Made by a program: the position numbers and the translations under genes
NCBI GenBank assembly: GCA_902775475.1
Contig: CACYME010000012.1
Coordinates: 1 to 64,000, forward strand
DNA length: 64,000 bases
Source: an uncultured Prevotellaceae bacterium
GTDB lineage: Bacteria; Bacteroidota; Bacteroidia; Bacteroidales; Bacteroidaceae
Direction: 5' to 3'
The notes under the pieces: model-generated
What the model saw: only the letters and a program-made list of their open reading frames with translations
Database searches by the model: none
Told to the model about the DNA's origin: nothing
Part shown: piece by piece, positions 11,246-42,315 of the stretch
Position numbering within the stretch: the stretch's first letter is position 1
Layout: each line of letters starts with the position of its first letter

Positions 11246-13216
11246 CTAATACCCCGGATTCTGCACGAGCAGCGGGTTCTTCACCAGTTCGTCGGTGGGG
11301 ATGGGCCACAGGTAGTTGCGAGTAGTGAACACATGGAGCAGCTGCGGGTCCTGAATGCGCTGGTAGTAGCCCTGGGCGGTCGACTCGTCGGCGTTCCACT
11401 GGTAGATGGCGGTGTTGAAGCGCTTCGGGCCGTCGAGCCAGCGGCGCACGTCGTCGTTGCGGTAGCCCTCAAAGGCCAGCTCTGCCGTGCGCTCCTGCTT
11501 GATAATCTCGCGCATGCCCTCCTGCGTCTGGTAATAGTTGGGGTGCTTGGCATTGGCCCAGGCATCCTCCACGGTGGGCACGCCGGAGCGGGCGCGGATG
11601 GTGTCGAGCACGTTCAGGATTTCCTGCTGGCGGGCGGTTCCGTAGACCTCGTTCATGCACTCGGCATAGCTGAGCAGCATCTCGTTGTAGCGGATGATGG
11701 GCCAGGCGTAGCGGGTGATGGTGCCGTTGCCCTTGGTGTCGGGGTGCATGAGCTTACGGAGGAAGACGCCCGACGTGGGCACGTCGATGTCGTTGTGGCT
11801 CTGCCGGCCGTTGGCCTCCATGTAGCGCATCTTCAGGTTGTAGAGCGTTCCGTAGCCACGCACACGGGAACGGTCGAAGCCGATGGAGGCATAGAAGCGG
11901 GGCTCGCGGTTCATGAACATGTAGGCCGTCTGCTCGCCCACCTGCGCCACGGTGTTATACTCCGCTGGGATGGTCACCACGGAGTCGCGGTTCTCGTAGT
12001 CGAAGGTGGGGTCCTCGTCCATGGGCAGTCCGTTCTGGGTGTAGAAGAACTCGGTGGCGTTCAGCGTGGGGCCGAACCACTGCCAGGCATCGCCCGTTGA
12101 GGTCTCTGCCGAACTCTTGTAGTTGATGGAGCGCTGAATCTCGTGCCAGCTGAGGACGAGATGGGCAGGACGTGAGCAGCCCCAGATGACCTCCTCGTTC
12201 CAGTTGGTGACCATGGCGTACTGGTAGTTGTACATGTAGGGCAGGCGGATGGAGTCGTTGCGGAAGTTGCGCACGTCGATGGTCTTCGAGTAGTCGGCGG
12301 CGGGGTAGCGGAACAGGCGGACGTTGGCCACCTTGCAGGCTTCCAGCGCATCCTCGTAGGCCGTCAGGGCGCGCTCCCACTTCTGGTGCTCCAGCTGGTC
12401 GTCGCTCTGCGGGAAGAGCTTGGTGCCGTCGTGGTTCTCCAGGGTGTAGTAGAGCGGGTTGTTGTTGAACAGGGGGCTGGCGGCATAGAGCAGCACCTTG
12501 GCCTTGAAGCACTTACAGATGGTCTGGTCGATGCGTCCCAGCTCGGCGGTGTTGATGATGCGCATGGGGAGGGCGTCGCAGGCCTCGTCGAGCAGACCGA
12601 CGATGTAGTCGATGACCTGGTCTACGGGTCGGCGCTCATACTGGTTCTCGGGGGCGGAGATGTCGAGCGGCGTCTCGTCCTCGATGATGGGGATGGCACC
12701 ATACTGGGTGAAGAGCAGGAAGTGGTAGTAGGCCTTGAGGAACTTCACCTCGGCGCTCCATCGGCTAATCTCGCTCTGCGTCATGTCGGGCACGCGGCCT
12801 ATGTTGTTCAGGAAGGTGTTGCAGATGCGCAGCGGCACGAAGAGCGAAGCCTCGCAGGGGGCATGCTCGGCCCAGGAGCCGCCCCAGTCGCCATACCAGA
12901 AGCTCATGATGGGCCTGTCGGCGCTGACCTTTCCGAGCACGGCGTTCTTGCCGTCGGTGACGCGGTCGATGCTCATGATCATCTCGTCGCTCATGCCGAG
13001 GAACGAGTAGGTGTTGTCATATTCGGGGATGTAGTGGTAGCAGGTGGCCAGGGCGTTATAGGCCGTTTCCTTGCGGTTGAAGAGGGCGCGGATGTCCTGC
13101 GTGTTGTCGGGCACCACGTCTAAATAGTCGGAGCACGACACCAGCACGTCACCCGTCAGGCACAGTCCGCAAAGCACTGCCGCCGTATAAATCTGATTAA
13201 ATATCTTCATCTTCAT
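11246..13216 (-). CDS. SusD/RagB-family outer-membrane lipoprotein of PUL1
   Basis: The ATG at 13216 opens MKMKIFNQIYTAAVLCGLCL; the lipobox is in VSCSDYLDVVPD, the classic SusD start. The 656-residue protein keeps SusD hallmarks: YNALATCYHYIP, RWSAEVKFLKAYYHFLLFTQYG and the C-terminal LAFEGYRNDDVRRWL and LWPIPTDELVKNPLLVQNPGY. SusD forms the lid on the SusC channel and binds glycan at the cell surface. It starts 60 bp after susC. Confidence 0.95.
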   Translation of the reverse strand: MKMKIFNQIYTAAVLCGLCLTGDVLVSCSDYLDVVPDNTQDIRALFNRKETAYNALATCYHYIPEYDNTYSFLGMSDEMIMSIDRVTDGKNAVLGKVSADRPIMSFWYGDWGGSWAEHAPCEASLFVPLRICNTFLNNIGRVPDMTQSEISRWSAEVKFLKAYYHFLLFTQYGAIPIIEDETPLDISAPENQYERRPVDQVIDYIVGLLDEACDALPMRIINTAELGRIDQTICKCFKAKVLLYAASPLFNNNPLYYTLENHDGTKLFPQSDDQLEHQKWERALTAYEDALEACKVANVRLFRYPAADYSKTIDVRNFRNDSIRLPYMYNYQYAMVTNWNEEVIWGCSRPAHLVLSWHEIQRSINYKSSAETSTGDAWQWFGPTLNATEFFYTQNGLPMDEDPTFDYENRDSVVTIPAEYNTVAQVGEQTAYMFMNREPRFYASIGFDRSRVRGYGTLYNLKMRYMEANGRQSHNDIDVPTSGVFLRKLMHPDTKGNGTITRYAWPIIRYNEMLLSYAECMNEVYGTARQQEILNVLDTIRARSGVPTVEDAWANAKHPNYYQTQEGMREIIKQERTAELAFEGYRNDDVRRWLDGPKRFNTAIYQWNADESTAQGYYQRIQDPQLLHVFTTRNYLWPIPTDELVKNPLLVQNPGY

Positions 13217-13224
13217 AATTATTT

Positions 13225-13277
13225 CAATTCTAAAGTCTCTCAACTCTCAAAACTAAAGTCTCTCAACACTCAACTCT
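13225..13277. repeat. Simple CTCAACTCTCAAAACT spacer repeat between susC and susD
   Basis: The spacer is composed of AAAGTCTCTCAACTCTCAAAA, AAAGTCTCTCAACACTCAACT and similar units running into the last codons of susC. It belongs to the same simple repeat family as 11190-11245. Confidence 0.7.
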
Positions 13278-16200
13278 CAAAACTCCACATTGATACCTAA
13301 GTTAAAGACGCGCTGCGTGGGGTAGCCGATGCCGTAGCCTCCCATTTCGGGATCCCAGAGCTTGAAGTCGCTGAAGCAGAGCAGGTTGTTGCCCGAGGCA
13401 AAGATGCGGATGACGTCGAAGCCCCACTCCTTGGTGAGCTTCGAGGGCAGCGAGTAGCCCACCTCGACGGTCTTCAGGCGCAGGAAGGCGCCGTTGCGCA
13501 GCCACCAGGTGGAGTTCTGCGTGTTGTTCGAGTTGATGCTGGTGGAGAGGCGGGGCCAGAAGGCATGCGGGTCGGGGTTCTCCTCGCTCCAGTAGTTGCC
13601 CACCACGAGCTTCAGGGCGTTGCGGTGCGACGAGAAGGGCTCGATAGACGAGGGGTTGATGAAGAACGACGAGTGGGCCGAGCCCTGGAAGAAGAACGAG
13701 CAGTCGAAGCCCTTGTAGCCCGTGGAGGCGCCAAAGCCGTAGATAATCTCCGGGTCGCTGGGGTAGCCGATGGCCACCTGGTCCTTCACGTCGATGCGTC
13801 CGTCCTTGTTGATGTCCACATACTTGATGTCGCCGGCCATGTAGCCCACGCCGGGCGTCTGGTCGAACTGCACGGGGCTGTTCATCACGTCCTCGTCGTC
13901 GATGAAGAGTCGCTCGGCCACGTAGCCCCACTGCTGCGAGAGGCTGTAGCCCATGCGGTTGCGCCACTCCTCGGGGTAGACGAGGTCGCCGCCGCGCAGG
14001 TACTCGCTCGTGGCGTAGGTATAGTTGAAGCGGGTCTGCAGCCACCAGTCCTTGTTGATGCTCCAGTTGATGTCGAACGAGGCGTCGATGCCGTGGCTGC
14101 GGGCCTTGCCCAGGTTGGCATAGATGGCGGCGGTGGCGCCCATCGTCTGCGGCACGGCCTGCATCTGCTGGTAGATGTCGTCGCGGTTCTCGCGGAAGTA
14201 CTCCACCTGTACGTTCGCCTTGCCCAGCAGGTCGATCTCCACGCCGTAGTTCTGCTTCTTCGCCGCCTCCCAGCCTATCTGGGCGTTGGCATAGCGGTTG
14301 ATGGAGAAGCCGTTGTAGCTGACGTTGAAGTTCTGTCCCCAGGCATAGCCGCGGTCGCCGTTGCTGGTGTTCACGTCGGCCAGATAGTAGAAGCGGGCGC
14401 CCGAGGCCATGATGTTGTCGTTACCCACCAGACCGTAGCTGGCCTTCAGCTTCAGCATGGGCAGGAGGTCGCTCAGGCCCCAGTCCTGCCAGAATTTCTC
14501 GTTAGAGATGATGTAGCCCACGCCGATGGAGGGGAAGAATCCCCAGCGGTGATGGCGGTCGAACTTCTCCGAGCCGTTGTAGCCGAAGTTGCCCTCCACG
14601 AAGTAGCGGTCGCCGAAGGCGTAGGTCAGACGGCCCGAGAGGCCCAGCGTGCGGATGGGCAGCGAGCCGAAGGTGCCGCCGGCATTGCCCAGCAGCTGCT
14701 CCTTGGCCTGGCCCACGAGCAGGGCGCCCACGCTGTGCTGGCCGAAGGCGCGGTTATACTGCACGGCGGCCTCGAAGTAGTAGGAGCTGCTGGTCGACAG
14801 TTCCTGCTGGGGGTTGCTCAGACGGTCGGAGCCCTCGGTCACCTGGTTCAGGCTGTAGCGTGTGCCCAGCTCGCTCACGTCGGTGGCCAGGGCGTAGTAG
14901 AAGGGTGCTATGGTGCGGGTGTTGGTGTTCGAGCCGGTCGACGAGAACGAGGCCAGACCGCGTGCCGAGAGGCCCTCGGTGAGCATGCTCAGGTCCTGCT
15001 CAATGGTAAAGATGCTGTTGCCCGTGTAGGAAAAGCCATCCTTGTAGCCCACCATCATCTGGGCGTAGGGGTTGGGATATTCGCCAAAGCGGCCGGCGTT
15101 GCCGTAGAGCACGTGGTCGGCATAGTACCACGTGTTGTCGATGGACTTGTCGTAGTAGGCGGGGAAGTCCACGGGGTTGGCGCGCATGATTTGGTCGAAG
15201 AGTGCCGTCGTCGATGCCGCCGGGGTGTTCGAGCGGTCGAGCAGCGAGTAGACCTTCACCGCCACCTTCGTCGTCTTCGTCAGGTTCACGTCGATGTTGG
15301 CGCGAATGTTGTAGCGGTTGATGCTGATGTTATTATTATAGTTGTTCACCTTCGGCACCTTCAGCAGGCCGTTCTCGTGGGTGTAGGCCGCCGAGAGGTA
15401 GTACTGCGCCACCTCGCCGCCGCCGCTTGCCGTCACCGTGGCCTTGGTGTTGATGGTCTGGTTCTTGAACATCATGCCATACCAGTCCACGTTCGGGTAG
15501 AGCTGTGCGTCGGTGCCTGCCAGCGTGTTCTCAATCTTCTCCTTCAGGTAGGCATCGCCCACGGTGCCCGAGAGGTCGCGCGTGCGCTGCGCGTAATTAT
15601 AGAGGTTCATGTAGTCCACGCCGTCCACGAACTCCAGAATCTTCGTCGGCGTCGACACCTGCGTCTCCACGCGCGTGGTAATCTTCACCTTGCCCTTGCG
15701 GCCGCTCTTCGTGGTGACGAGGACGACGCCGTTGGCACCCTTCGAGCCGTAGAGGGCCGTGGCCGTGGCGTCCTTCATGATGCTGAACGAGGCGATGTTC
15801 TCAGGCTCCAGGCGTGCCAGGTCCTCGGTTGACATTTCCACGCCGTCGATGAGGATGAGCGGCCCGGCCAGCGCGCTGTTGATGGTCGACACGCCGCGCA
15901 CGAAGAAGTTGGCGTTGTCCTTGCCCGGCTCGCCCGATCGCTGGTAGGAGATGATGCCGGCGATGCGGCCAGCCAGCGTGTTCGTCAGGTTCGTCGTCGG
16001 CGTCTTCAGCTCGGCGGGGTTGATGGTCTCGATGGAGCCGATGACCGAGTTCTTCTTCTGCCGGGCGAAGGCCACCACCACCGTCTCGTCGAGCGTCGTG
16101 GCGTCCTCGCGCATCACCACGTCGATGACGTCGCGCCCGCCCACGGCCTCGCGTCGCGGCGCAAAGCCGATGTAGGTGAAGGTCAGCGTGTCACGCGGGG

Positions 16201-16408
16201 CAGCGCTCACGGCGTAGCGTCCGTCGATGCTCGTCGTCGTGCCCTGCGCCTCGCTGCCCTTCACGTAGACGCTCACGCCGGGCAGCGCCGTGCCCTCGCC
16301 GTCCACCACCAGGCCCTTCACAATGTGCTGCTGCCCCAGCGCATCCAGCACCCCGAGGGTCAGCAGCGCCAGGAGCGCCGAAAGCAGTCTCACAGGTTTT
16401 CTTGTCAT
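13277..16408 (-). CDS. SusC/RagA-family TonB-dependent glycan transporter of PUL1
   Basis: The product is 1043 residues from the ATG at 16408 (MTRKPVRLLSALLALL; an ATG at 16417 adds three residues). After the signal comes a carboxypeptidase D-like beta domain (VKGLVVDGEGTALPGVSVYVKG), the plug (LDETVVVAFARQKKNSVIGS; LIDGVEM; ATALYGSKGANGVVLVTTKSG) and a 22-strand barrel ending FNLGINVEF. It imports oligosaccharides through the outer membrane using TonB energy with the adjacent SusD. It is the first gene of PUL1. The CPD domain without an STN domain fits control by a regulator other than an ECF/anti-sigma pair, in line with the TPR-HTH regulator upstream. Confidence 0.96.
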   Translation of the reverse strand: MTRKPVRLLSALLALLTLGVLDALGQQHIVKGLVVDGEGTALPGVSVYVKGSEAQGTTTSIDGRYAVSAAPRDTLTFTYIGFAPRREAVGGRDVIDVVMREDATTLDETVVVAFARQKKNSVIGSIETINPAELKTPTTNLTNTLAGRIAGIISYQRSGEPGKDNANFFVRGVSTINSALAGPLILIDGVEMSTEDLARLEPENIASFSIMKDATATALYGSKGANGVVLVTTKSGRKGKVKITTRVETQVSTPTKILEFVDGVDYMNLYNYAQRTRDLSGTVGDAYLKEKIENTLAGTDAQLYPNVDWYGMMFKNQTINTKATVTASGGGEVAQYYLSAAYTHENGLLKVPKVNNYNNNISINRYNIRANIDVNLTKTTKVAVKVYSLLDRSNTPAASTTALFDQIMRANPVDFPAYYDKSIDNTWYYADHVLYGNAGRFGEYPNPYAQMMVGYKDGFSYTGNSIFTIEQDLSMLTEGLSARGLASFSSTGSNTNTRTIAPFYYALATDVSELGTRYSLNQVTEGSDRLSNPQQELSTSSSYYFEAAVQYNRAFGQHSVGALLVGQAKEQLLGNAGGTFGSLPIRTLGLSGRLTYAFGDRYFVEGNFGYNGSEKFDRHHRWGFFPSIGVGYIISNEKFWQDWGLSDLLPMLKLKASYGLVGNDNIMASGARFYYLADVNTSNGDRGYAWGQNFNVSYNGFSINRYANAQIGWEAAKKQNYGVEIDLLGKANVQVEYFRENRDDIYQQMQAVPQTMGATAAIYANLGKARSHGIDASFDINWSINKDWWLQTRFNYTYATSEYLRGGDLVYPEEWRNRMGYSLSQQWGYVAERLFIDDEDVMNSPVQFDQTPGVGYMAGDIKYVDINKDGRIDVKDQVAIGYPSDPEIIYGFGASTGYKGFDCSFFFQGSAHSSFFINPSSIEPFSSHRNALKLVVGNYWSEENPDPHAFWPRLSTSINSNNTQNSTWWLRNGAFLRLKTVEVGYSLPSKLTKEWGFDVIRIFASGNNLLCFSDFKLWDPEMGGYGIGYPTQRVFNLGINVEF

Positions 16409-16457
16409 TAATACCATTACTGTTGTTGTTTTTTTAGAGTTTTAGTTTTTTCGTTGG

Positions 16458-16465
16458 CAAAGTTA
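16458..16465 (-). promoter_or_regulatory. Promoter -7 element of PUL1 susC
   Basis: TAACTTTG on the minus strand matches the Bacteroidota -7 consensus TAnnTTTG. It lies about 50 bp upstream of the susC start. A T-rich segment lies at the -33 position, without a clear TTTG. Confidence 0.6.
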
Positions 16466-16616
16466 AGGCTTTTCTGCCGAATAAAAAAGCAATGTGGAGG
16501 CCGAAGTGGACGATTCGCAGGCCGAAAGTCATGGCAACACATTGCCGCACAGCCACTTACAGCCCCGCCGTCTGGTAGCTGAAAGTGGAACGCAGCGCTC
16601 ATCATTATGGACGGAA

Positions 16617-16772
16617 CGGCCCCCCTCAATCCCCCCAACTGGGGGGGGAAGAAGCCCCCTCCAACCTCCCCCAACTGGGGGAGGCTTTAGAAGTTACTCC
16701 TGCCGGGGAGTCCGGCGCATCCAATTCCCCCCTGTTGGGGGGACTGAGGGGGCTGCTTACCGCAAAGCGGTT
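16617..16772. repeat. GC-rich interspersed inverted-repeat element (CCCCCAACTGGGGG type)
   Basis: The sequence holds stacked dyads such as CCTCCCCCAACTGGGGGAGG and CCCCCCTGTTGGGGGG, then ACCGCAAAGCGGT. A close copy lies inside the coding region of the regulator at 47385-47500, and a piece (CCTCCAACCTCCCCCA) is inside the GH3 gene at about 3333-3362. Here it is intergenic, upstream of susC. Confidence 0.8.
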
Positions 16773-16849
16773 CTTTCAAAAACAGAGAAAAACAATAAAA
16801 ACAGAGAAAAACCAGCTTTTATGTAGCGCTGCAGGCGAAAATTTGTCGT

Positions 16850-17260
16850 TCCCGGCCTCAAATTTTGTCAAGATGTTTGACAATTAATTTTTTCTTGTTT
16901 CTTTACAAAAAATTTTTTCATTCTACGCAAAAAAGTTGCTCATTTCCGCCCGTTTGTGCAGCTTTTCGCCGTGAATGCCCGTCATTTTTAGCCAAAAATT
17001 CTGCACAAACCATCCGTTTTGTGCAAAATCAGCCCAAATTTTTGCCTCGAACCGCGTTTCTGCAAGCACGCCAAATTTGAAAAAGTCAACGCCGCAGAAA
17101 AATTTGGCGTTGACTTTTTTTCGCCGTCAGGCAGGTTTTTCGTCCATATTGGCCGTAACAATCTGAATGACAGTGCTTTGCTTAAAACGCTCAAAACTCG
17201 CTCATTTTCGCCCAAAAGTTTTCTCGTGCAGAATTCTTGAGTTTTGAGGGCCTTTAATCC
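16850..17260. repeat. AT-rich interspersed repeat, copy 1, with central AAAAGTCAACGCC hairpin
   Basis: The core is AAAAGTCAACGCC (17081-17093), a 12-base loop, then GGCGTTGACTTTT (17106-17118) and more T. Flanks match copy 2 (22680-23045): TTGCCTCGAA, TTCTG-AA-CACGCCAAATTT before the hairpin and AAAAGTTTCTCG-GCA-AATT after it. Between the PUL1 promoter and the fusion gene, the hairpin with its T-run could also terminate transcription. No gene was seen in 16773-17431. Confidence 0.75.
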
Positions 17261-17376
17261 CTCTCTCTTACACGATTTTGTCAACATTTTTCACAAAAAT
17301 TGCTACAAGATTGCAAAACCTTTTTTTATGGAAATTTCGAGCTGTATAGTTGTCGTACTGTTCGAAAACACTGAAG

Positions 17377-17391
17377 TACCGCAAAGCGGTA
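17377..17391. repeat. Short TACCGCAAAGCGGTA palindrome
   Basis: TACCGC-AAA-GCGGTA is a perfect 6-3-6 dyad followed by AGTCCATAAAAAACTTGG. The same dyad ends the GC-rich element at 16758-16772, and its complement with the same flank type (GGTAAGTCTGTAAAAGACTT) is at 40316-40345. A small repeat family of the spacers. Confidence 0.6.
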
Positions 17392-17431
17392 AGTCCATAA
17401 AAAACTTGGGGCAACCGTACAAACGCCTCGC

Positions 17432-20400
17432 TCAGAACGTATAGGAGCAGCCGACGATGAGGCAGCGGGTATTAGGGCTGGTGAGGGTGAGGGTGTTCTG
17501 GCTGGTGTTGGTGAGCATCTGCTTGTGGTCGGGCTGGAGGATGTCCTGCACAAAGGCGTAGAGGGCCCAGGGGCCGAGCTCCTTGACGGCGCGGAGCGAC
17601 CAGTAGAAGGTGGGCTGCTGGTAGTAGTAGCGGTGGGTCTCGCGCCCGGTATAGAGCAGGGTGGTGGCGAGAGTCCACTGGCGTGGCAGTTGCACCTGCG
17701 GGCGCAGCTTGAAGCTGTAGGACCAGGCGTGGTCGGAGTCGCGGCTCTCGCCTTTGTAGTGAAGATACTGCATGTGGAAGCCCATGGTGGCCGTGAGGGG
17801 TCCGCTGCGCAGCTCGCCCTCGGCGGCATAGCGCAGGGTGGCGTAGCGTGCATCGTTCACCCAAGTCTTCACCGAGCGCTGCGATGCCTCGTCGAACGAT
17901 GACACCTGCGAGATGTCGTCGCCGATGCGGCGGTAGGCCAGGCTGTGGGTGTGGGTGAAATGGGTGGCGGAGTGGGTGTAGGCAGCCTTCAGCTGGGTGG
18001 TCTTCGAGGGACTGAGGGCAGTATTGCCTACGACCATGACGCCGATGCTGCTGCCGATGTGGACGAAGGGATAGAGCTGCGTGTAGGTGGGGCGCTGCAC
18101 GGTGCGGTCGAAGCTGAGCACGAGCTTATGTGCCGCGCTGGGCCTGAGGGTGGCGCGTGCCGAGAGCATCCAGTCGTTGTAGGTGCGGCGGTCGGTGGCT
18201 ACCTGGTGGTCGTCGATATCGTTGACAAAATGCTCGTAGCGCAGGGTGGCGTCGAGGGCGAGGGGGCCGTGGGCGTAGGCTGCGGAGAGCGAGGTGAGCG
18301 AGGAACGGGTGTCGAAGTTGAAGGCCGTCTCGGTGTCGTCGATGTGCATGTCCTCGATGGTGAACTTCTCCTCGATGCCGAACTTGAGGCCGCGCCACTC
18401 GGGGGTCTGGAAGCGGAGCATGGCGTAGGGATCGAAGTTGTGGAGCGTCTGGCGCTGCTGGCGCAGCGATGCCTCGGTGTGGGTGGCCCAGGTGTCGGAG
18501 CTGACGGTGGTGGGCTTGTAGTTGTACTTCAGGTTCAGGCGGGCGGTGAGGCGTCCGGCGCGCTCAAGGTCGCAGATGTACTGCAGGAGTCCGCCCAGCT
18601 TCAGGTCGCGGTTGGAGCGGCGCTGCTCCTCGTAGAGCGATGACTGCTGGGTGCCGTCGGCCTCGTGTCCGTTGGTGATGGTGTTCTCGCTGATGCGGCT
18701 GTGGTCGAAGCTCTCGAGGATGCCGAGGCTGAAGATGTGGCCCTGGCGCGGCTGGTAGTCGAGGCGGGTAGAGAAGTCGTGCTTCTCGTGGCGGGTGAGG
18801 ATGTCGGTGCTCGTGAGGCGGTCGGCACCGGTGGTGAAAGTGGTGCTGACGTCCTTCCCGGTGGTGAGCTCGCTGAAGTCGGCAGAGAGCTGGCTGGTGA
18901 TGAGGAGCTTATCCTTCAGGTAGGTGATATAGCCCGACGGCATGGCTCGGCCGTTGCTGCTGGCACCGAGGTAGGCTCCGCCGTAGAGGTTGGCGGAGTC
19001 GGGGGCGTGCTGCAGCTCCTCGCCGACGTCGTAGGCGTCCATGATACGCTTGGCGATGCGCTGGAACTCGTTGGTATCCTGAGCGTGGAGGGGGAAGGGG
19101 AGGAAGAGGAGAAGGAGGAAGAGGAAGAGGAAAACACCAGAGGCCCCTAAAGCCCCCCCTTCTGCCCCCCCTTCTGCCCCCGAGGGGGCTACATTAGTTT
19201 TGTCTGCGGAGAAGTTTATAGTAGTCCCCTCGGGGGCAGAAGGGGAGGCCTGGGGGGCGTCGGGGGCCTCAGGGCTCCCAATCTTCCTGACCTGCTCCTC
19301 GAACTCGTCGCGGGGACCGCAGGCAGCGTTCTTCACGGTGGAGCGGTAGTTGTAGATGGTGTGTACGGAGTAGTGGAGGAACTCGGCGATGCGCGAGCTG
19401 TCGGCGATGCCGAGGCGTATGAGGGCGAAGATGCGTAGCTCGGTGGTGAGGCGGTGGTCGGCAGGCGGGGTGATGCGGCCCTCGGGGGTGAGCAGGGCGT
19501 TGAAGTCGCTGACGAAGGTGGGGAAGATGTCGAGGAAGGCGTTGTCGAAGTCGTCCATGAGCTCGTCGACCTCCTTGTCCTTCATCTGGCGCATGCGCTG
19601 CGCCGACAGATAGTCGGCCAGCTGTCCGCTCTTCTCCTTGCGGAGCACGGTGGAGCGGAAGGCATCCATCTTCTTCATGTAGGCCGAGCAGAGGGCGAGG
19701 AAGCGGCCGATGTAGACCTCCTTGATGCGGTTGCTGTCGGTGAGGAGGCCGTTGCTCTCGTTCAGTTCGGTGACGGCCTGTCTCAGCTGCTGGTTCAGCG
19801 CGGTGAGCTGCTGGTTCAGCTCCGTCAGGTGCTGGTTGGCCTGGTGGAGGCTCTGGCGGGCTGCGGCCAGGCGCTTCATCTGCAGGAACACATAGACCAC
19901 GGCCACGGCCAGCAGCAGGGCGAGGATGCCCACAAGGATGAGCGACCAGCGCAGCTGGCGGTTCTGCTTGTCGGTCATGAGCTGGTAGTTGTGGTCGATC
20001 ATGGAGAGGATGCTCACGCTCTGCAGGTTGCGCAGCGGGGTGTTGTAGAGGCGGAGGCCATCCTGCGAGGTGCGTATGAGGCGGTAGGACCACTCCACGT
20101 CGCCCTCGCGGGCCAGCAGGTCGGCCAGCGTCCAGAGCGATGCCTGGTCCTTGATGGAGTTGCGCACGTCGCCAATGGCGGAGCGCAGCAGCCAGTATTT
20201 CTCCTGCTCGTGGTCGCCCATGTTGCGATAGATCCAGGAGCGGAAGAAGGCCACCTCGGAGAACTGCGGCGAGGCGGGGTCTACACGGCTCATCTGCTCG
20301 TTGTTCCAGCTGAGGGCCTCGTCGTAGCGTCCCTGGTTGCGGGCGTTGGTCTCCTGCAGGAAGAAATAGGCCAGGCTGGCGGTGTCGAGGAGCTGCTCGC

Positions 20401-20998
20401 GCTGCAGCTGCTGGCGGTAGTGGCTGGCGCGCTGGCTGTAGTCGGCATTGATGGCAGAGTCCTGCGAGTAGTGGCCTGCCTCGCCATAGACATCGCGGCA
20501 GACTTCGTAGTAGAGACGGCGCAGGCTGTCACCGAGGGTCTCCTCGCTGACAGCCTCCACGAGCTTCACGGCCTCGAGGTAGGCACCGGCCTTGGCATAG
20601 AGGCGGGCTTTGCGCAGCTGCATGGCGGTCATCTGGCTCTGGGTGCCGGCGGCACGGGCCAGCTGCAGGCCACGGTCGAGGTAGCGGCAGGCAGAGTCGT
20701 AGCTGTACTTATAGTAGGCCTCTATCAGCTGGTCGTTCAGGCGCATCGCCTCGGCAGCGTTGCCATGTGCACGGCCAGCCTCGGCCTTCAGGGCATCGAT
20801 GCGGCGCTGGTGGGCAGCGTCGTATTCGGGTATGCGGCTGATGGCTGAGTCGAGCTGTGCGAAAAGAGAAGAAACTGAAGAAGAGGACACTCCCTCAAAG
20901 TCCCTCACTTCTGCCCCTCCCTTGAGAGGGGAGTTGATAGATTTGCCACTGGCACCTCCACTAATAAATATAAGCAGGAGCAGTATAATCGTTTTCAT
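17432..20998 (-). CDS. Fused gene: TPR-HTH (DUF6377-like) regulator joined in frame to an outer-membrane beta-barrel
   Basis: The 1188-residue frame runs from MKTIILLLLIFIS (ATG 20998). Residues 1-574 are a complete regulator: signal peptide, TPR-like helices (about 45-340), one membrane span (351-373), a Gln/Leu coiled coil (about 375-425) and a C-terminal HTH region (LRIFALIRLGIADSSRIAEFLHYS). It aligns over its length with the 565-residue regulator at 40618-42315, which ends just after the equivalent of KIG574. Here no stop occurs: a repeat-encoded Ala/Gly/Pro linker (575-621) leads into a second hydrophobic signal-like segment (622-640, ending PLHAQ) and an approximately 550-residue beta-barrel ending in GCSYTF. 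The barrel part has no start codon of its own. A second repeat sits after the N-terminal signal. It lies upstream of PUL1, so PUL1 control is likely. Confidence 0.85.
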   Translation of the reverse strand: MKTIILLLLIFISGGASGKSINSPLKGGAEVRDFEGVSSSSVSSLFAQLDSAISRIPEYDAAHQRRIDALKAEAGRAHGNAAEAMRLNDQLIEAYYKYSYDSACRYLDRGLQLARAAGTQSQMTAMQLRKARLYAKAGAYLEAVKLVEAVSEETLGDSLRRLYYEVCRDVYGEAGHYSQDSAINADYSQRASHYRQQLQREQLLDTASLAYFFLQETNARNQGRYDEALSWNNEQMSRVDPASPQFSEVAFFRSWIYRNMGDHEQEKYWLLRSAIGDVRNSIKDQASLWTLADLLAREGDVEWSYRLIRTSQDGLRLYNTPLRNLQSVSILSMIDHNYQLMTDKQNRQLRWSLILVGILALLLAVAVVYVFLQMKRLAAARQSLHQANQHLTELNQQLTALNQQLRQAVTELNESNGLLTDSNRIKEVYIGRFLALCSAYMKKMDAFRSTVLRKEKSGQLADYLSAQRMRQMKDKEVDELMDDFDNAFLDIFPTFVSDFNALLTPEGRITPPADHRLTTELRIFALIRLGIADSSRIAEFLHYSVHTIYNYRSTVKNAACGPRDEFEEQVRKIGSPEAPDAPQASPSAPEGTTINFSADKTNVAPSGAEGGAEGGALGASGVFLFLFLLLLFLPFPLHAQDTNEFQRIAKRIMDAYDVGEELQHAPDSANLYGGAYLGASSNGRAMPSGYITYLKDKLLITSQLSADFSELTTGKDVSTTFTTGADRLTSTDILTRHEKHDFSTRLDYQPRQGHIFSLGILESFDHSRISENTITNGHEADGTQQSSLYEEQRRSNRDLKLGGLLQYICDLERAGRLTARLNLKYNYKPTTVSSDTWATHTEASLRQQRQTLHNFDPYAMLRFQTPEWRGLKFGIEEKFTIEDMHIDDTETAFNFDTRSSLTSLSAAYAHGPLALDATLRYEHFVNDIDDHQVATDRRTYNDWMLSARATLRPSAAHKLVLSFDRTVQRPTYTQLYPFVHIGSSIGVMVVGNTALSPSKTTQLKAAYTHSATHFTHTHSLAYRRIGDDISQVSSFDEASQRSVKTWVNDARYATLRYAAEGELRSGPLTATMGFHMQYLHYKGESRDSDHAWSYSFKLRPQVQLPRQWTLATTLLYTGRETHRYYYQQPTFYWSLRAVKELGPWALYAFVQDILQPDHKQMLTNTSQNTLTLTSPNTRCLIVGCSYTF
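19136..19276. repeat. GC-rich inverted repeat at the regulator/barrel junction
   Basis: Within the fused gene, CTTCTGCCCCCGAGGGGG and its complement CCCCTCGGGGGCAGAAG flank a short AT-rich centre, and a second CCTTCTGCCCCCC unit adjoins. The DNA encodes the low-complexity linker residues 575-621 (SPEAPDAPQASPSAPEG..., NVAPSGAEGGAEGG...). The same CTTCTGCCCCTC unit recurs at 20895-20935. It occupies exactly the place where a stop codon and a start codon would be expected. Confidence 0.8.
20880..20945. repeat. Repeat insertion in the signal region of the fused gene
   Basis: The bases CCTCAAAGTCCCTCACTTCT and GCCCCTCCCTTGAGAGGGGA encode residues about 18-40 (SINSPLKGGAEVRDFEGVSS), between the signal peptide and the TPR region. 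The homologous regulator at 40618 has no such segment. It shares the CTTCTGCCCCTC unit with the junction repeat. Confidence 0.7.
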
Positions 20999-21031
20999 GC
21001 TATTGTCGTTTTCCGTTCGTTCTTCGAGTGG

Positions 21032-21063
21032 CAAAGATACAAAAAACAAATTATCCGAACAAA
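21032..21063 (-). promoter_or_regulatory. Promoter of the fused regulator/barrel gene
   Basis: On the minus strand TTTG (21060-21063) and TATCTTTG (21032-21039) are separated by 20 bp, matching the Bacteroidota -33/-7 pattern. The start codon is 33 bp downstream of the -7 box. Confidence 0.65.
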
Positions 21064-21267
21064 TATTCCGCTGGAAATCTTTCCCCTATGAAGAAAGATG
21101 CCACTTTTTCAGAAAGAGCATTTACACTTTTTAGGGGTGCTATAGAATGCAATTTCCATTCGAGAACCAACTGGAAACCAACAACTTGCCGCACGCTGTC
21201 AAACCTCAAGGGGCATGCTAAGCCCCACTTTGGGCAGGGGCAGCCATCCACTTTTTCATTAAAGCCC

Positions 21268-21299
21268 CTTGTGGGAGCACCTTTTTTTGCCTAACTTTG
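21268..21299 (+). promoter_or_regulatory. Promoter of the GH18 chitinase gene
   Basis: CTTG (21268-21271) and TAACTTTG (21292-21299) are 20 bp apart, close to the Bacteroidota promoter consensus. The chitinase ATG is 27 bp after the -7 box. The 328-bp interval to the divergent fused gene therefore holds both promoters; a small GGGGCATGCTAAGCCCC dyad lies at about 21209-21226. Confidence 0.6.
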
Positions 21300-21326
21300 T
21301 CGCATCTTTCAAAAACAAAAGAAGAC

Positions 21327-22517
21327 ATGAAACAGCTATTGACGATGCTGGTGGCCCTGCTGACGGCGGTGGCCCTGCAAGCGCAAACGGCCGACAGGCT
21401 GGTAACTCAGAATGATGAGGAGGAGGGAAAGAAGGTGGTGGCCTACGTCACCTCGTGGACAACCATCATGCCCGACCCGATGGTGATGACCCACATCAAC
21501 TACGCCTTTGGCGGCGTGGGCGACGACCACCGCTCGGTGTATGCCGACAACCTCGGCCGCCTGCAGCAGATAGTGAAGCTGAAGGAGAAGAACCCTCGGC
21601 TGAAGGTGCTGCTCAGCGTGGGCGGATGGGGCCGTGGCGGCTTCAGCCCCATGGCTGCCGACGCCGACTGCCGACGGGCCTTCGCCCAGGCTTGCCGCAC
21701 GTTCTGCGAGCAGCAGGGCCTCGACGGCATCGACATCGACTGGGAGTTCCCCGGCGACAACTCCTCGGGCGAGACATCGCCACGCGGCGAGAAGCAGAAC
21801 TACACCCTGCTGATGCGTGACCTGCGCGAGGCCCTGGGCGAGGACCTGCTGCTGACGATGGCCTCGTCGTCGGACCCCAGCCGCTACGACTTCCGCAGCT
21901 GCATGCAGTATCTCGACTTCGTCAACGTGATGACCTACGACATGGCCGGACCGCCCAACCATCACTCTGCCCTCTACCGCGGCGGCACCGTGGGCAACGG
22001 CTACCTGGTGGCCGACGAGAGCATCAGCCGCCACCTGCAGGCTGGCATCCCCGCCAAACAGCTGGTGATGGGCCTGGCCTTCTATGGCAACAGCGGGCGC
22101 GGTGAGCAGATTTCGCTGCAAGAGATTAAATGGAAGCTGGGCTCGGGCGACTACGTGGACCACTGGGACGACGTGGCGAAGGTGCCCTACCTGACGACGA
22201 AGGACGGCAGCTTCGCCTACGGCTACGACAACCAGCAGTCGCTCACCATCAAGTGCCAGTACATCCTCGACCGCGGACTGGCTGGCGGCATGTACTGGGA
22301 GTATGGCAACGACGACCGCCTGGGCACCGAGCGAAAGACGGTCTACAACTGTCTGCTGGCTCCCGACGACGCAAAGCTCAGCATCGAGGAGGCCGCCCTG
22401 AAACAGAAACCAACCGCCGGGCGCCACCTCTTCGACCTGTCGGGGCGCCTGGTAGCGAATCCACTGCCAAGACGGGTGTACATTTCCGCAGGGGGCAAAG
22501 CCGTGAAAGGTATTTAA
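21327..22517 (+). CDS. GH18 family chitinase, secreted
   Basis: The ATG at 21327 opens MKQLLTMLVALLTAVALQAQ, a signal peptide; the upstream ATG at 21297 overlaps the promoter box. The 396-residue protein is a GH18 barrel: SxGG motif in VLLSVGGWG (about 96-102), catalytic DGIDIDWE (E140), and the MTYDMAGP and late MYWEYGND blocks. It hydrolyses chitin or GlcNAc oligomers with retention through the substrate N-acetyl group. The C-terminus (HLFDLSGRLV...VYISAGGKAVKGI) resembles a type IX sorting tail. It is divergent from the fused regulator and next to a probable beta-1,6-glucan PUL, fitting a fungal cell-wall diet. Confidence 0.93.
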   Translation: MKQLLTMLVALLTAVALQAQTADRLVTQNDEEEGKKVVAYVTSWTTIMPDPMVMTHINYAFGGVGDDHRSVYADNLGRLQQIVKLKEKNPRLKVLLSVGGWGRGGFSPMAADADCRRAFAQACRTFCEQQGLDGIDIDWEFPGDNSSGETSPRGEKQNYTLLMRDLREALGEDLLLTMASSSDPSRYDFRSCMQYLDFVNVMTYDMAGPPNHHSALYRGGTVGNGYLVADESISRHLQAGIPAKQLVMGLAFYGNSGRGEQISLQEIKWKLGSGDYVDHWDDVAKVPYLTTKDGSFAYGYDNQQSLTIKCQYILDRGLAGGMYWEYGNDDRLGTERKTVYNCLLAPDDAKLSIEEAALKQKPTAGRHLFDLSGRLVANPLPRRVYISAGGKAVKGI

Positions 22518-40617: not shown

Positions 40618-42315
40618 ATGAGACGACTATTAACCACCATTGTCCTACTGGCATGCTATTGCGGTCTGTGGGCCGACCATCAGCCAGCTCTCGACTCGCT
40701 CTACCGCGCACTCGACGCCGCCATCGACTCGTCGTACATCTACGTTCAACAGAAGACCGACCGCCTGCAGCAGCTGAAGGCCGACCTGCGGCAGGCCACC
40801 AGCGACAGCCTGCGCTTCAGCTGCGCCCGCCGGCTTTACGAGGAATACGTCCCCTTCGACAACGACTCAGCCATCGCCTACCAGTATCAGTGCCTCGACA
40901 TCGCGCAGCTGATGGGCCGCGACGACCTGCACGCCGAGACGCTGCTGATGCTGGCCGACCAGCTCACCGAGTCGGGCTTCTACAACGAGGCACGCCTGCA
41001 CTTCATGGCCGTGGCACCCAAGTGCCAGACGGGCGACCTGCACCAGGGCTACCTCTCCGGCCTGGGCCATCTCTACGGCGAGATGGGCTACTACTCCCAC
41101 GACCCACGCCTGCGGCAGGACTTCTTCGCCCAGGCGGGCCTGCTGCGCGACTCGCTGCTGCACAGCCTCGACAGCACCTCGGCCGACTGGCTGAAGCTGC
41201 GCACGATGATGCTCGTGAGCGAGACCCGCCCCAGCGAGGCCATGCCCTACAGCGACCGCTGGCTGGAGAGCTGTCAGCCCGGTGGGCGCGACTTCGCCAT
41301 CATGGCCTACTATCGCTCCGTCATCTATAGTCAGCAGAACAATGTGGAGATGCAGCGCTACTGGCTGGCACAGTCGGCACTGACCGACATCCGCAACGCC
41401 ATCATGGACCAGGGAGCGCTGTGGAGCCTGGCCGAGACGCTCATCAGCGAGAACGAGAACCTGGACCGCGCCCACCGCTACATCGACTTCTCGTGGCAGT
41501 GTCTGTCGCGCTTCAGCACCCACATGCGTGCCTGGCTCGTGGCACCCGTCGTGACCAGCATCAACGACGAGTACAAGCAACAGCTGCGCACGGCCAACAA
41601 CCAGCTCGTATGGGCCATCGCACTGGTCAGCCTGCTGGCCGTGGGACTGCTGGCCTCGCTCTTCTACGTGCAGCGCAAGCGCAAGCAGCTCGCCCTGGCG
41701 CGCAACGAGCTGAAGGCCGCCAACGACGAGCTGGCATCGGTGAACGCGCTGCTGGCCGGCAAGAACGACGAGCTGCAGCAGGCTAACGGGCTGTTGCAGC
41801 AGGCCAACGAGCAGCTGCGGCTGGCGGTGATGCACTTAGACGACTCGAACCGCGTGAAGGACGAATACCTGGGCAAGTTCTTCAACATCTGCTCGGACTA
41901 TATCGACAAGCTCGACAGCTATCGCCTGAAGGTGAACCGCAAGCTGAAGGCCAACCTTTATAACGACCTGATGCGCATGACGAACTCGGAACAGCTGAAG
42001 GAGGACGAGGTGAAGGAGCTCTTCGACAACTTCGACAGCGTCTTCCTGCACCTGTTCCCCACCTTCATCGACGACTTCAACGCACTGCTGCGGCCCGAGG
42101 AGCGCATCAACCTGCCCAGCCGCAACCATCTGAACACCGACCTGCGCATCTTCGCACTTATCCGCCTGGGCATCGACGAGAGCTCGAAGATTGCCGAGTT
42201 CCTGCGCTACTCGCCCAACAGCATCTACGCCTATCGTGCCCGCATCAAGAACAAGGCCGCAGGCAACCGCAACGACTTTGAGAAGCAGGTGAAGGAAATA
42301 GGTATCAAGGGATAG
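40618..42315 (+). CDS. TPR-membrane-HTH (DUF6377-like) regulator, probable PUL2 regulator
   Basis: The 565-residue protein has a signal peptide (1-19), periplasmic helical TPR-like repeats (about 20-320), one membrane span (about 330-350: WAIALVSLLAVGLLASLFYV), a coiled coil (about 350-415) and a C-terminal DNA-binding-like region (DLRIFALIRLGIDESSKIAEFLRYSPNSIYAYRARIKNKA). It aligns with residues 1-574 of the fused protein at 17432-20998. The layout suggests that the periplasmic TPR part senses a ligand and the cytoplasmic HTH controls transcription. It is divergent from PUL2 susC, the usual place for a PUL regulator. Confidence 0.85.
   Translation: MRRLLTTIVLLACYCGLWADHQPALDSLYRALDAAIDSSYIYVQQKTDRLQQLKADLRQATSDSLRFSCARRLYEEYVPFDNDSAIAYQYQCLDIAQLMGRDDLHAETLLMLADQLTESGFYNEARLHFMAVAPKCQTGDLHQGYLSGLGHLYGEMGYYSHDPRLRQDFFAQAGLLRDSLLHSLDSTSADWLKLRTMMLVSETRPSEAMPYSDRWLESCQPGGRDFAIMAYYRSVIYSQQNNVEMQRYWLAQSALTDIRNAIMDQGALWSLAETLISENENLDRAHRYIDFSWQCLSRFSTHMRAWLVAPVVTSINDEYKQQLRTANNQLVWAIALVSLLAVGLLASLFYVQRKRKQLALARNELKAANDELASVNALLAGKNDELQQANGLLQQANEQLRLAVMHLDDSNRVKDEYLGKFFNICSDYIDKLDSYRLKVNRKLKANLYNDLMRMTNSEQLKEDEVKELFDNFDSVFLHLFPTFIDDFNALLRPEERINLPSRNHLNTDLRIFALIRLGIDESSKIAEFLRYSPNSIYAYRARIKNKAAGNRNDFEKQVKEIGIKG

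Follow-up and report, generated by a model that had tools for sequence, protein, structure and literature searches.

How does a regulator of the SusR family come to share a single reading frame with an outer-membrane beta-barrel? The question is posed by a gene at positions 17432 to 20998 of the window, by which we mean the whole 64,000-nucleotide (nt) stretch analysed here, positions 1 to 64,000 of contig CACYME010000012.1 (GenBank assembly GCA_902775475.1) from an uncultured Prevotellaceae bacterium. The initial annotation of this DNA saw in the gene a polyprotein that couples the making of a barrel to that of its regulator, and named an accidental readthrough fusion as the alternative. The evidence lies closer to this alternative, but the agent is a specific one: we consider it likely that a free-standing barrel gene stood beside the regulator and that an in-frame palindromic element bridged the junction and made a single gene. 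The fusion is probably a by-product of this element that has been tolerated, rather than a coupling device that evolved as such.

A single frame bridged by a repeat

As annotated, the frame runs without a stop from end to end. Its parts are the following.

17432..20998, minus strand: fused gene, 1188 codons plus stop (ATG at 20998, stop at 17434-17432, no internal stops)
19277..20998, minus strand: SusR-family regulator part, amino acids (aa) 1-574 (NCBIfam NF058541 SusR_regulator and DUF6377)
19385..20170, minus strand: DUF6377 domain, aa 277-538 (PF19904, 268.8 bits)
19883..19939, minus strand: predicted membrane span of the regulator, aa 354-372 (top hydropathy window, mean 3.12)
19136..19276, minus strand: linker, aa 575-621, one extended palindrome from the native end of the regulator to the hydrophobic segment of the barrel
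19164..19249, no strand assigned: core of the dispersed palindromic element, aa 584-612 (covariance-model match of 91 bits at 19158-19255)
19079..19135, minus strand: signal-like hydrophobic segment, aa 622-640, ending PLHAQ, without start codon or positive n-region
17435..19078, minus strand: outer-membrane beta-barrel part, aa 641-1188 (OMP_b-brl_3, 91 bits; no plug domain found)

The linker had been described as repeat-encoded, and its repeat character is far beyond chance: its DNA gives 64 match rows in its own genome (both strands and the linker itself counted), and the predicted fold of its RNA has an energy of -109.3 kcal/mol, with z = -9.1 relative to shuffled sequences. The linker is a single copy of a GC-rich palindromic element that recurs across this genome, in frame within conserved genes. 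A protein search of 40 relatives, own genome included, gave regulator matches and no other fused frame. The nearest orthologs of the regulator are those of G329 (72% identity), G312 (61%) and G009 (58%), every one a separate gene. Their C-termini, KRIGSHL in G312, RQIGNPV in G329 and KRIGNNQVPSQTPL in G009, each followed by the stop, end just where the linker begins, and the chain of the window continues exactly at this point (RKIGSPEAPDAPQ). At the other end of the linker, the barrel orthologs of G189 and G113 have their own ATG and n-region. A 730-codon frame at the regulator match of G002 was considered as another fusion and rejected; it is merely open sequence upstream of a regulator start.

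The regulator is complete as a family member, matching SusR_regulator with 509.2 bits (cut-off 480) over aa 44-573. Its likeness to the stand-alone regulator at 40618-42315, to which it had been matched end to end, amounts to 37% identity (E 4.1e-94) along residues 24-562 of that protein, with DUF6377 in both. We predict for it a signal, a periplasmic part, a membrane span and a cytoplasmic part. The three most hydrophobic stretches of the fused protein are the span at 354-372, the second segment and the N-terminal signal. The best window of the second segment, 615-633, is the second-most hydrophobic 19-residue window of the protein and overlaps the annotated signal-like stretch that ends in PLHAQ at residue 640. 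Some 20 extra residues follow the regulator signal (SPLKGGAEVRDFEGVSSSS; window 20876-20935); they are absent from the orthologs read, and their DNA is repeat-like. This stretch (aa 22-41) has one weak 33-nt match elsewhere in the genome, and we do not claim it as a second dispersed element.

Could the barrel be started on its own? The initial annotation had found no start codon near its signal, and indeed the frame has no ATG, GTG or TTG between codon 555 (within the regulator) and codon 653 (past the expected signal-peptidase site). The barrel therefore cannot start together with its signal segment in the normal way. An independent start within the linker at a non-standard codon, yielding two proteins, is highly improbable: ATT at codon 573 and ATA at codon 594 might serve, but the region lacks all three usual codons and forms a very stable hairpin.

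The palindromic element and its copies

What kind of element forms the linker? The bridge at 19136-19276 folds as a single palindrome, and across 18 aligned copies the arms are near-invariant, as in a short palindrome with terminal inverted repeats. A covariance model built on these copies, the window copy among them (so that its 91-bit match is not independent), finds at least 24 distinct sites in the own genome at E<=0.01, a lower bound obtained by scoring 150 of 998 first-look candidates. The peptide of the element is nearly always APPSAPEGATI...TIEAPSGAVGGA or close to it. Since the element is a palindrome with a multiple-of-three phase, reading it in one orientation or the other changes the peptide little (APPSAPEGATI.. 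against APPTAPEGASI..). Four of the six frames of the consensus are open, so that openness alone would permit more peptide variety than is observed. In all 49 copies with two recognisable arms (20 from the own genome, 29 from others), the arm-to-arm spacing is divisible by three, with eight values (39, 42, 45, 48, 51, 54, 75 and 78); this is what translation through the element predicts. This spacing and the absence of stops would also favour plain translation over translational bypass or RNA removal of the element, both of which we considered and set aside.

Two other candidates were dropped. The window copy looked like a hybrid of two oppositely oriented copies, but L087:3450 shows the same mix of arms and the pattern is no proof of such an origin. 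A comparison of 16000-22000 with Rfam gave 21 matches, all below gathering scores and mostly to miRNA hairpin families on the palindrome, which we attribute to chance. The arms (for example window 19164-19249) hold GTAG beside a CCCCC-TC-GGGGG hairpin, like GTAG-tagged repetitive extragenic palindromic (REP) elements.

Where do the copies lie? We took stretches around covariance-model sites plus some weaker matches, and most copies in the own genome lie inside long frames of unrelated conserved genes. The hosts are RsgA, an M3-type peptidase, Dxs, an OPT transporter, CobB, a PPDK_N protein, an alpha-glucuronidase-like protein, a TolQ/ExbB-like protein, a DUF5107-TPR protein, LigA, a GH32 enzyme, UvrA, DsbD, an ABC-F-type ATPase, GH97, an LPG_synthase_TM protein, DUF2264 and DUF4954 proteins, a histidine-kinase-like protein and an ADOP-like permease, with short forms of the element in GuaA and LeuRS; several of these names come from NCBIfam matches below cut-off, and alpha-glucuronidase, ABC-F, GuaA and LeuRS were named by eye.

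A codon-usage test, in which the coding frame was picked from the 315-nt flanks, blind to the element peptide, accepted a site only if the chosen frame was open through the element and scored above zero on both sides. By this measure 14 of 20 full-length sites in the own genome were accepted (13 with the usual peptide, one with the alternative SPPFCPRGGY...SPLGGRRGG), as were 5 of 11 short ones. For other genomes, represented by the best-scoring locus of each of 29 genomes and not by a random draw, the figures were 26 of 33 full-length sites (23 usual, three alternative) and one of two short sites. The six full-length failures in the own genome comprise four with a gene start or stop in the flank (L088, L091, L096, L099) and two at contig ends (L090, L101); the seven elsewhere comprise two contig ends, three open frames just below zero on one side (L163, L167, L168), a short gene (L171) and a frame change near the element (L148, in G395). 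At this last site (L148:1501-1590) an ADOP-like permease copy is out of frame with one flank, possibly a broken gene or an assembly slip. The six short failures in the own genome are both halves of L098, L105 (near a gene end), L192 (near a gene start), L186 (contig end) and L189, a half-copy that looks intergenic. No clearly intergenic full-length copy was seen among the 18 own sites that could be judged (14 by script, four by hand), in a census that is incomplete.

The rsgA site is without the element in 25 of 25 aligned relatives, drawn from loci of 29 other genomes after L220, L222, L224 and L227 were dropped by a motif and length filter. In most, only a few residues form the turn that links HTTTFSEM to DTPG, and in L202 and L208 this turn is slightly longer. 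At the same turn the rsgA of L200 (G006) holds a different long in-frame insert rich in Ser, Pro, Leu and Thr, as if this turn were a permissive site. Taking the top alignment of each protein in the Protein Data Bank (PDB), we found that for LigA and RsgA it stops at the element, and that for Dxs and UvrA it continues across, leaving about 24 and 27 residues unmatched, respectively. The longer spacer of the UvrA copy (L103:2931-3043) aligns partly with native residues of the solved homolog and may hold host sequence.

The consensus of the element matches 73 of 398 genomes of the genus (own included) at E <= 1e-5, and 19 of the 175 with a completeness of 90% or more and a contamination of 5% or less; in a sample of the order, 295 genomes of 184 genera, it is found only in that of the window. 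The best loci in other genomes include, by eye, CTP synthase, LeuRS, a PolA-like protein, LpxB and KdtA. Some sites are common to several species, namely the M3-type peptidase (G000, G075) and the ADOP-like permease (G000, G261, G113, G329, G395), which indicates that insertions can outlast speciation. In LeuRS and in KdtA, both named by eye, a full element in one species (L169:1501-1591 and L163:1501-1587) has as its counterpart, at roughly the corresponding site of another species, about its last 10 residues (L191:3038-3067 and L165:1273-1302), as if elements shrank in frame. TolC-like genes of two species, again by eye, carry the element at roughly one site but reversed (L151:1501-1591, L161:1501-1593), with little difference in the peptide.

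The barrel and its relatives

Does the barrel belong with the regulator? The annotation of an outer-membrane barrel holds: OMP_b-brl_3 matches residues 890-1179, and a Plug match is absent in the fused protein and in its three close relatives. Among 398 genomes of the genus (own included), drawn from a larger group, 119 give barrel matches; besides the own genome, three of these are close (E below 1e-100), and the remaining 115 give weak matches, none better than E 4e-9. The close relatives, G189 (76%), G113 (71%) and G112 (36%), have frames of 657, 576 and 597 codons. None of the three is fused, and they stand in three different settings: after susC-susD-like genes with an own ATG and signal in G189, beside nuo-type genes (named by eye), again with ATG and signal, in G113, and between a DegT-type aminotransferase and an umuC-like gene in G112. 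A second draw of 397 genus genomes, centred on G329, returned the same three relatives and, as listed, the same genomes, so that it adds no independent evidence.

These comparisons bear on the claim that regulator and barrel form a meaningful pair. The close barrel relatives and the regulator orthologs inspected are separate genes, and the pairing that a coupled product needs is therefore not supported; the comparison with related genomes, proposed by the initial annotation as its own check, showed the fusion, among the genomes searched, in the own genome only. A selected, working polyprotein, in which the whole chain is made and signal peptidase I cuts before Gln to give barrel and regulator in fixed ratio, is thus unlikely in our view. 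The hydrophobic segment and its AQD site are kept as in the separate orthologs (MRLLRYLFLLAMWFVWTADASAQDTNEF in G189, MIERIIILLFAFTTFSTLSSAQDTDEF in G113), LHA-QD fits the rule, as given in PMC5837995, that Gln follows the cut in Bacteroidetes substrates of signal peptidase I, and the barrel is open and conserved. But none of the close barrel relatives and none of the inspected regulator orthologs is fused, and the 47 residues ahead of the second segment (aa 575-621) hold one K/R against six D/E, a charge pattern that looks poor for a signal; it is this poor charge and the lack of conservation that lower our estimate.

Has the barrel then begun to decay? Its frame has no stop or frameshift over 548 codons. 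Nei-Gojobori estimates of nonsynonymous (dN) and synonymous (dS) divergence are dN 0.164 and dS 1.11 against G189, dN 0.211 and dS 1.31 against G113, and dN 0.173 and dS 1.2 between G189 and G113. The dN/dS of about 0.15 against G189 is similar to that between the two separate orthologs, and GC content at third codon positions (GC3) is 0.90 in the barrel and 0.86 in the regulator. By these measures the barrel is no obvious wreck and does not come from a foreign contig. It is conceivable, although we think it falls short of probable, that the regulator works while the barrel is stranded, its chain stuck in the inner membrane or degraded. The loss of start codon and n-region, the occurrence of the fusion in a single genome and the faster barrel branch would suit such an incipient decay; the open frame, the low dN/dS and the GC3 speak against it.

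An addition to a known PUL

The neighbourhood places the fused gene in a polysaccharide utilization locus (PUL).

13277..16417, minus strand: SusC-like gene, downstream (Plug and CarbopepD_reg_2 matches)
11246..13243, minus strand: SusD-like gene, downstream (SusD_RagB, 182 bits)
40618..42315, plus strand: stand-alone regulator paralog (DUF6377, 265.6 bits; 37% to the fused copy)

The SusC-like protein of the window shares 79-83% identity with the SusC encoded close to the regulator ortholog in L082/G312, G329 and G009, from which we conclude that the regulator is still within its PUL. Regulator, susC and susD are kept together in the relatives, and what lies in the slot between regulator and susC differs: in G312 (L082) susC and susD follow about 0.5 kb on, in G329 other genes occupy the gap and in G009 two other genes intervene. 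As G329 holds other genes there (L195:9461-13967), the slot is a variable site of the PUL, and synteny with the three relatives makes the barrel an addition to a known PUL. Among the genes in the G329 slot is one for a protein with M56-peptidase and TonB_C matches. In the window, other GC-rich palindromic repeats (CCCCCCAGTTGGGGGG type) lie between the barrel and susC at 16645-16760. The regulator branch is not faster than those of its orthologs, with 31 unique amino-acid changes against 47 in G329 and 34 against 66 in G312.

The same synteny speaks to the quality of the assembly. Could two element copies and the DNA between them have been collapsed, deleting a real stop and a real start? The junction is a dispersed repeat, the linker shares an exact match of up to 37 nt with a copy among 31 own-genome stretches, and some of the 69 contigs in the assembly (C66, C56, C43) have copies of the element right at an end. 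Yet the sequences on either side of the junction are parts of one PUL, which makes a long-range chimera unlikely, and no other copy exceeds 85% identity to the linker over stretches of 85 nt or more, so that reads can place it. We regard such an artefact as distinctly doubtful.

How the fusion may have arisen

We propose the following course for the bridging of regulator and barrel by the element. A free-standing barrel gene would have come to sit between a SusR-family regulator and its susC-susD. A palindromic element would then have bridged the junction, by insertion with a small deletion or by recombination of two copies, replacing the regulator stop, the gap, the start codon of the barrel and its positive n-region. 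Two genes could become one frame because the element is stop-free in four of six frames and has a phase-keeping length. The product would be a single chain with an N-terminal signal, a periplasmic part, a membrane span, a cytoplasmic DNA-binding part, a soluble linker of Ala, Pro, Gly, Ser and Glu, and a second hydrophobic segment. This segment might re-enter the Sec machinery, and a cut before Q at ..LHA-QD may free the barrel.

Several observations weigh against this course of events. The fusion is present in one genome only, and no intermediate with two element copies around a gap was seen at the fusion site. The barrel branch is the faster one, with 60 unique amino-acid changes against 33 in G189 (outgroup G113) and 32 against 21 in G113 (outgroup G112), and its dN/dS averages the time before and after fusion at a dS above 1, near saturation.

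A possible parental form

What could the element have come from? At L098:2594-3065 (contig C27 of the own genome, G000), at the junction of korA (by eye) and korB (TPP_enzyme_C), three features stand in a row: a left half-element (2601-2639), a complete DUF559 gene and a right half-element that lies within the beginning of korB. The DUF559 frame is complete (124 codons; PF04480, 125 bits), is in frame with the element peptide and also matches REase_MTES_1575, below cut-off. The arrangement resembles an element whose spacer carries an endonuclease-like gene and hints at a possible parental form. Half-element loci in other genomes (L231-L234) gave one DUF559 relative, L231 (41%), with no clear element arms seen around it; as no arm-flanked DUF559 was found there, the idea rests on a single locus. 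A comparison of the DUF559 protein with plasmids gave 40 records, all below 60% identity and with no Prevotella among the matches listed.

We tentatively extend this to a broader hypothesis, which we put forward as possible rather than probable. One Prevotellaceae genus may have its own family of mobile, protein-coding palindromes that insert in frame whichever way round, encode nearly the same peptide each time and sit in core enzymes of tens of species, that arose from or were spread by a DUF559-bearing parental form, and that can bridge junctions to create new fusions. The known cases of in-frame palindromes in functioning genes come mainly from Rickettsia and Wolbachia. An element family in the DNA repair, translation and isoprenoid genes of many species of this genus would offer a tractable system for asking how mobile DNA adds peptide to a protein without killing it and how fusions originate. 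It also carries a warning for annotation, as linkers, odd inserts and some apparent fusions in proteins of the genus can be made by the element.

Comparison with known systems

How does the fused gene compare with systems already described? The regulator matches the SusR family of glycan regulators (NF058541/DUF6377) above cut-off over profile positions 2-515 of 515, and differs in the C-terminal barrel added by a repeat-coded linker and in the residues added after its signal. The barrel resembles OMP_b-brl_3 and TonB-dependent-receptor-like barrels by a Pfam match above cut-off; with about 550 residues, it has no CarboxypepD-like or Plug match and lacks its own start codon. Among bacterial polyproteins cut by signal peptidase is cytochrome b/c1 of Bradyrhizobium (fbcH). 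A comparable internal hydrophobic segment with a putative cut site is present here at aa 622-640, as judged by sequence, whereas positive charge before the segment and conservation as a single gene are both lacking.

The element itself finds its counterparts among palindromic repeats. With GTAG-tagged REP elements, whose tyrosine transposases are known as RAYT, it shares small palindromes that are often paired in opposite orientation, with GTAG in the arms and some copies in genes; according to PMC3733652, REP elements lie mainly between genes, with cases within genes on record, whereas the judgeable full-length copies here lie within them. In its behaviour the element is like the Rickettsia palindromic elements (RPE), which are 105-146 bp long (PMC2229807) and of which nearly half lie in genes, in frame (PMC10969869); through the same two sources, protein-coding palindromes are attributed to Ogata 2000 and 2002, Wolbachia 2005 and Methanocaldococcus 2005. 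Among the matches listed from open-licence PMC articles, a search that does not cover subscription papers, none was seen to describe such an element in Prevotella or in any other member of the Bacteroidota. The likeness to RPE as these sources describe them lies in a length of roughly 100-150 bp, terminal inverted repeats, many copies and an in-frame position inside unrelated conserved genes. The many intergenic copies that mark RPE are not seen among the 18 judgeable full-length sites of the own genome, within the incomplete census: the judgeable full-length copies lie in genes, against nearly half of RPE in the literature cited. The present element is also GC-rich, has two small palindromes nested in its arms and inhabits a Prevotellaceae host with a 3.7-Mb genome. 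Unlike RPE, it gives nearly the same peptide in either orientation, and here it joins two genes.

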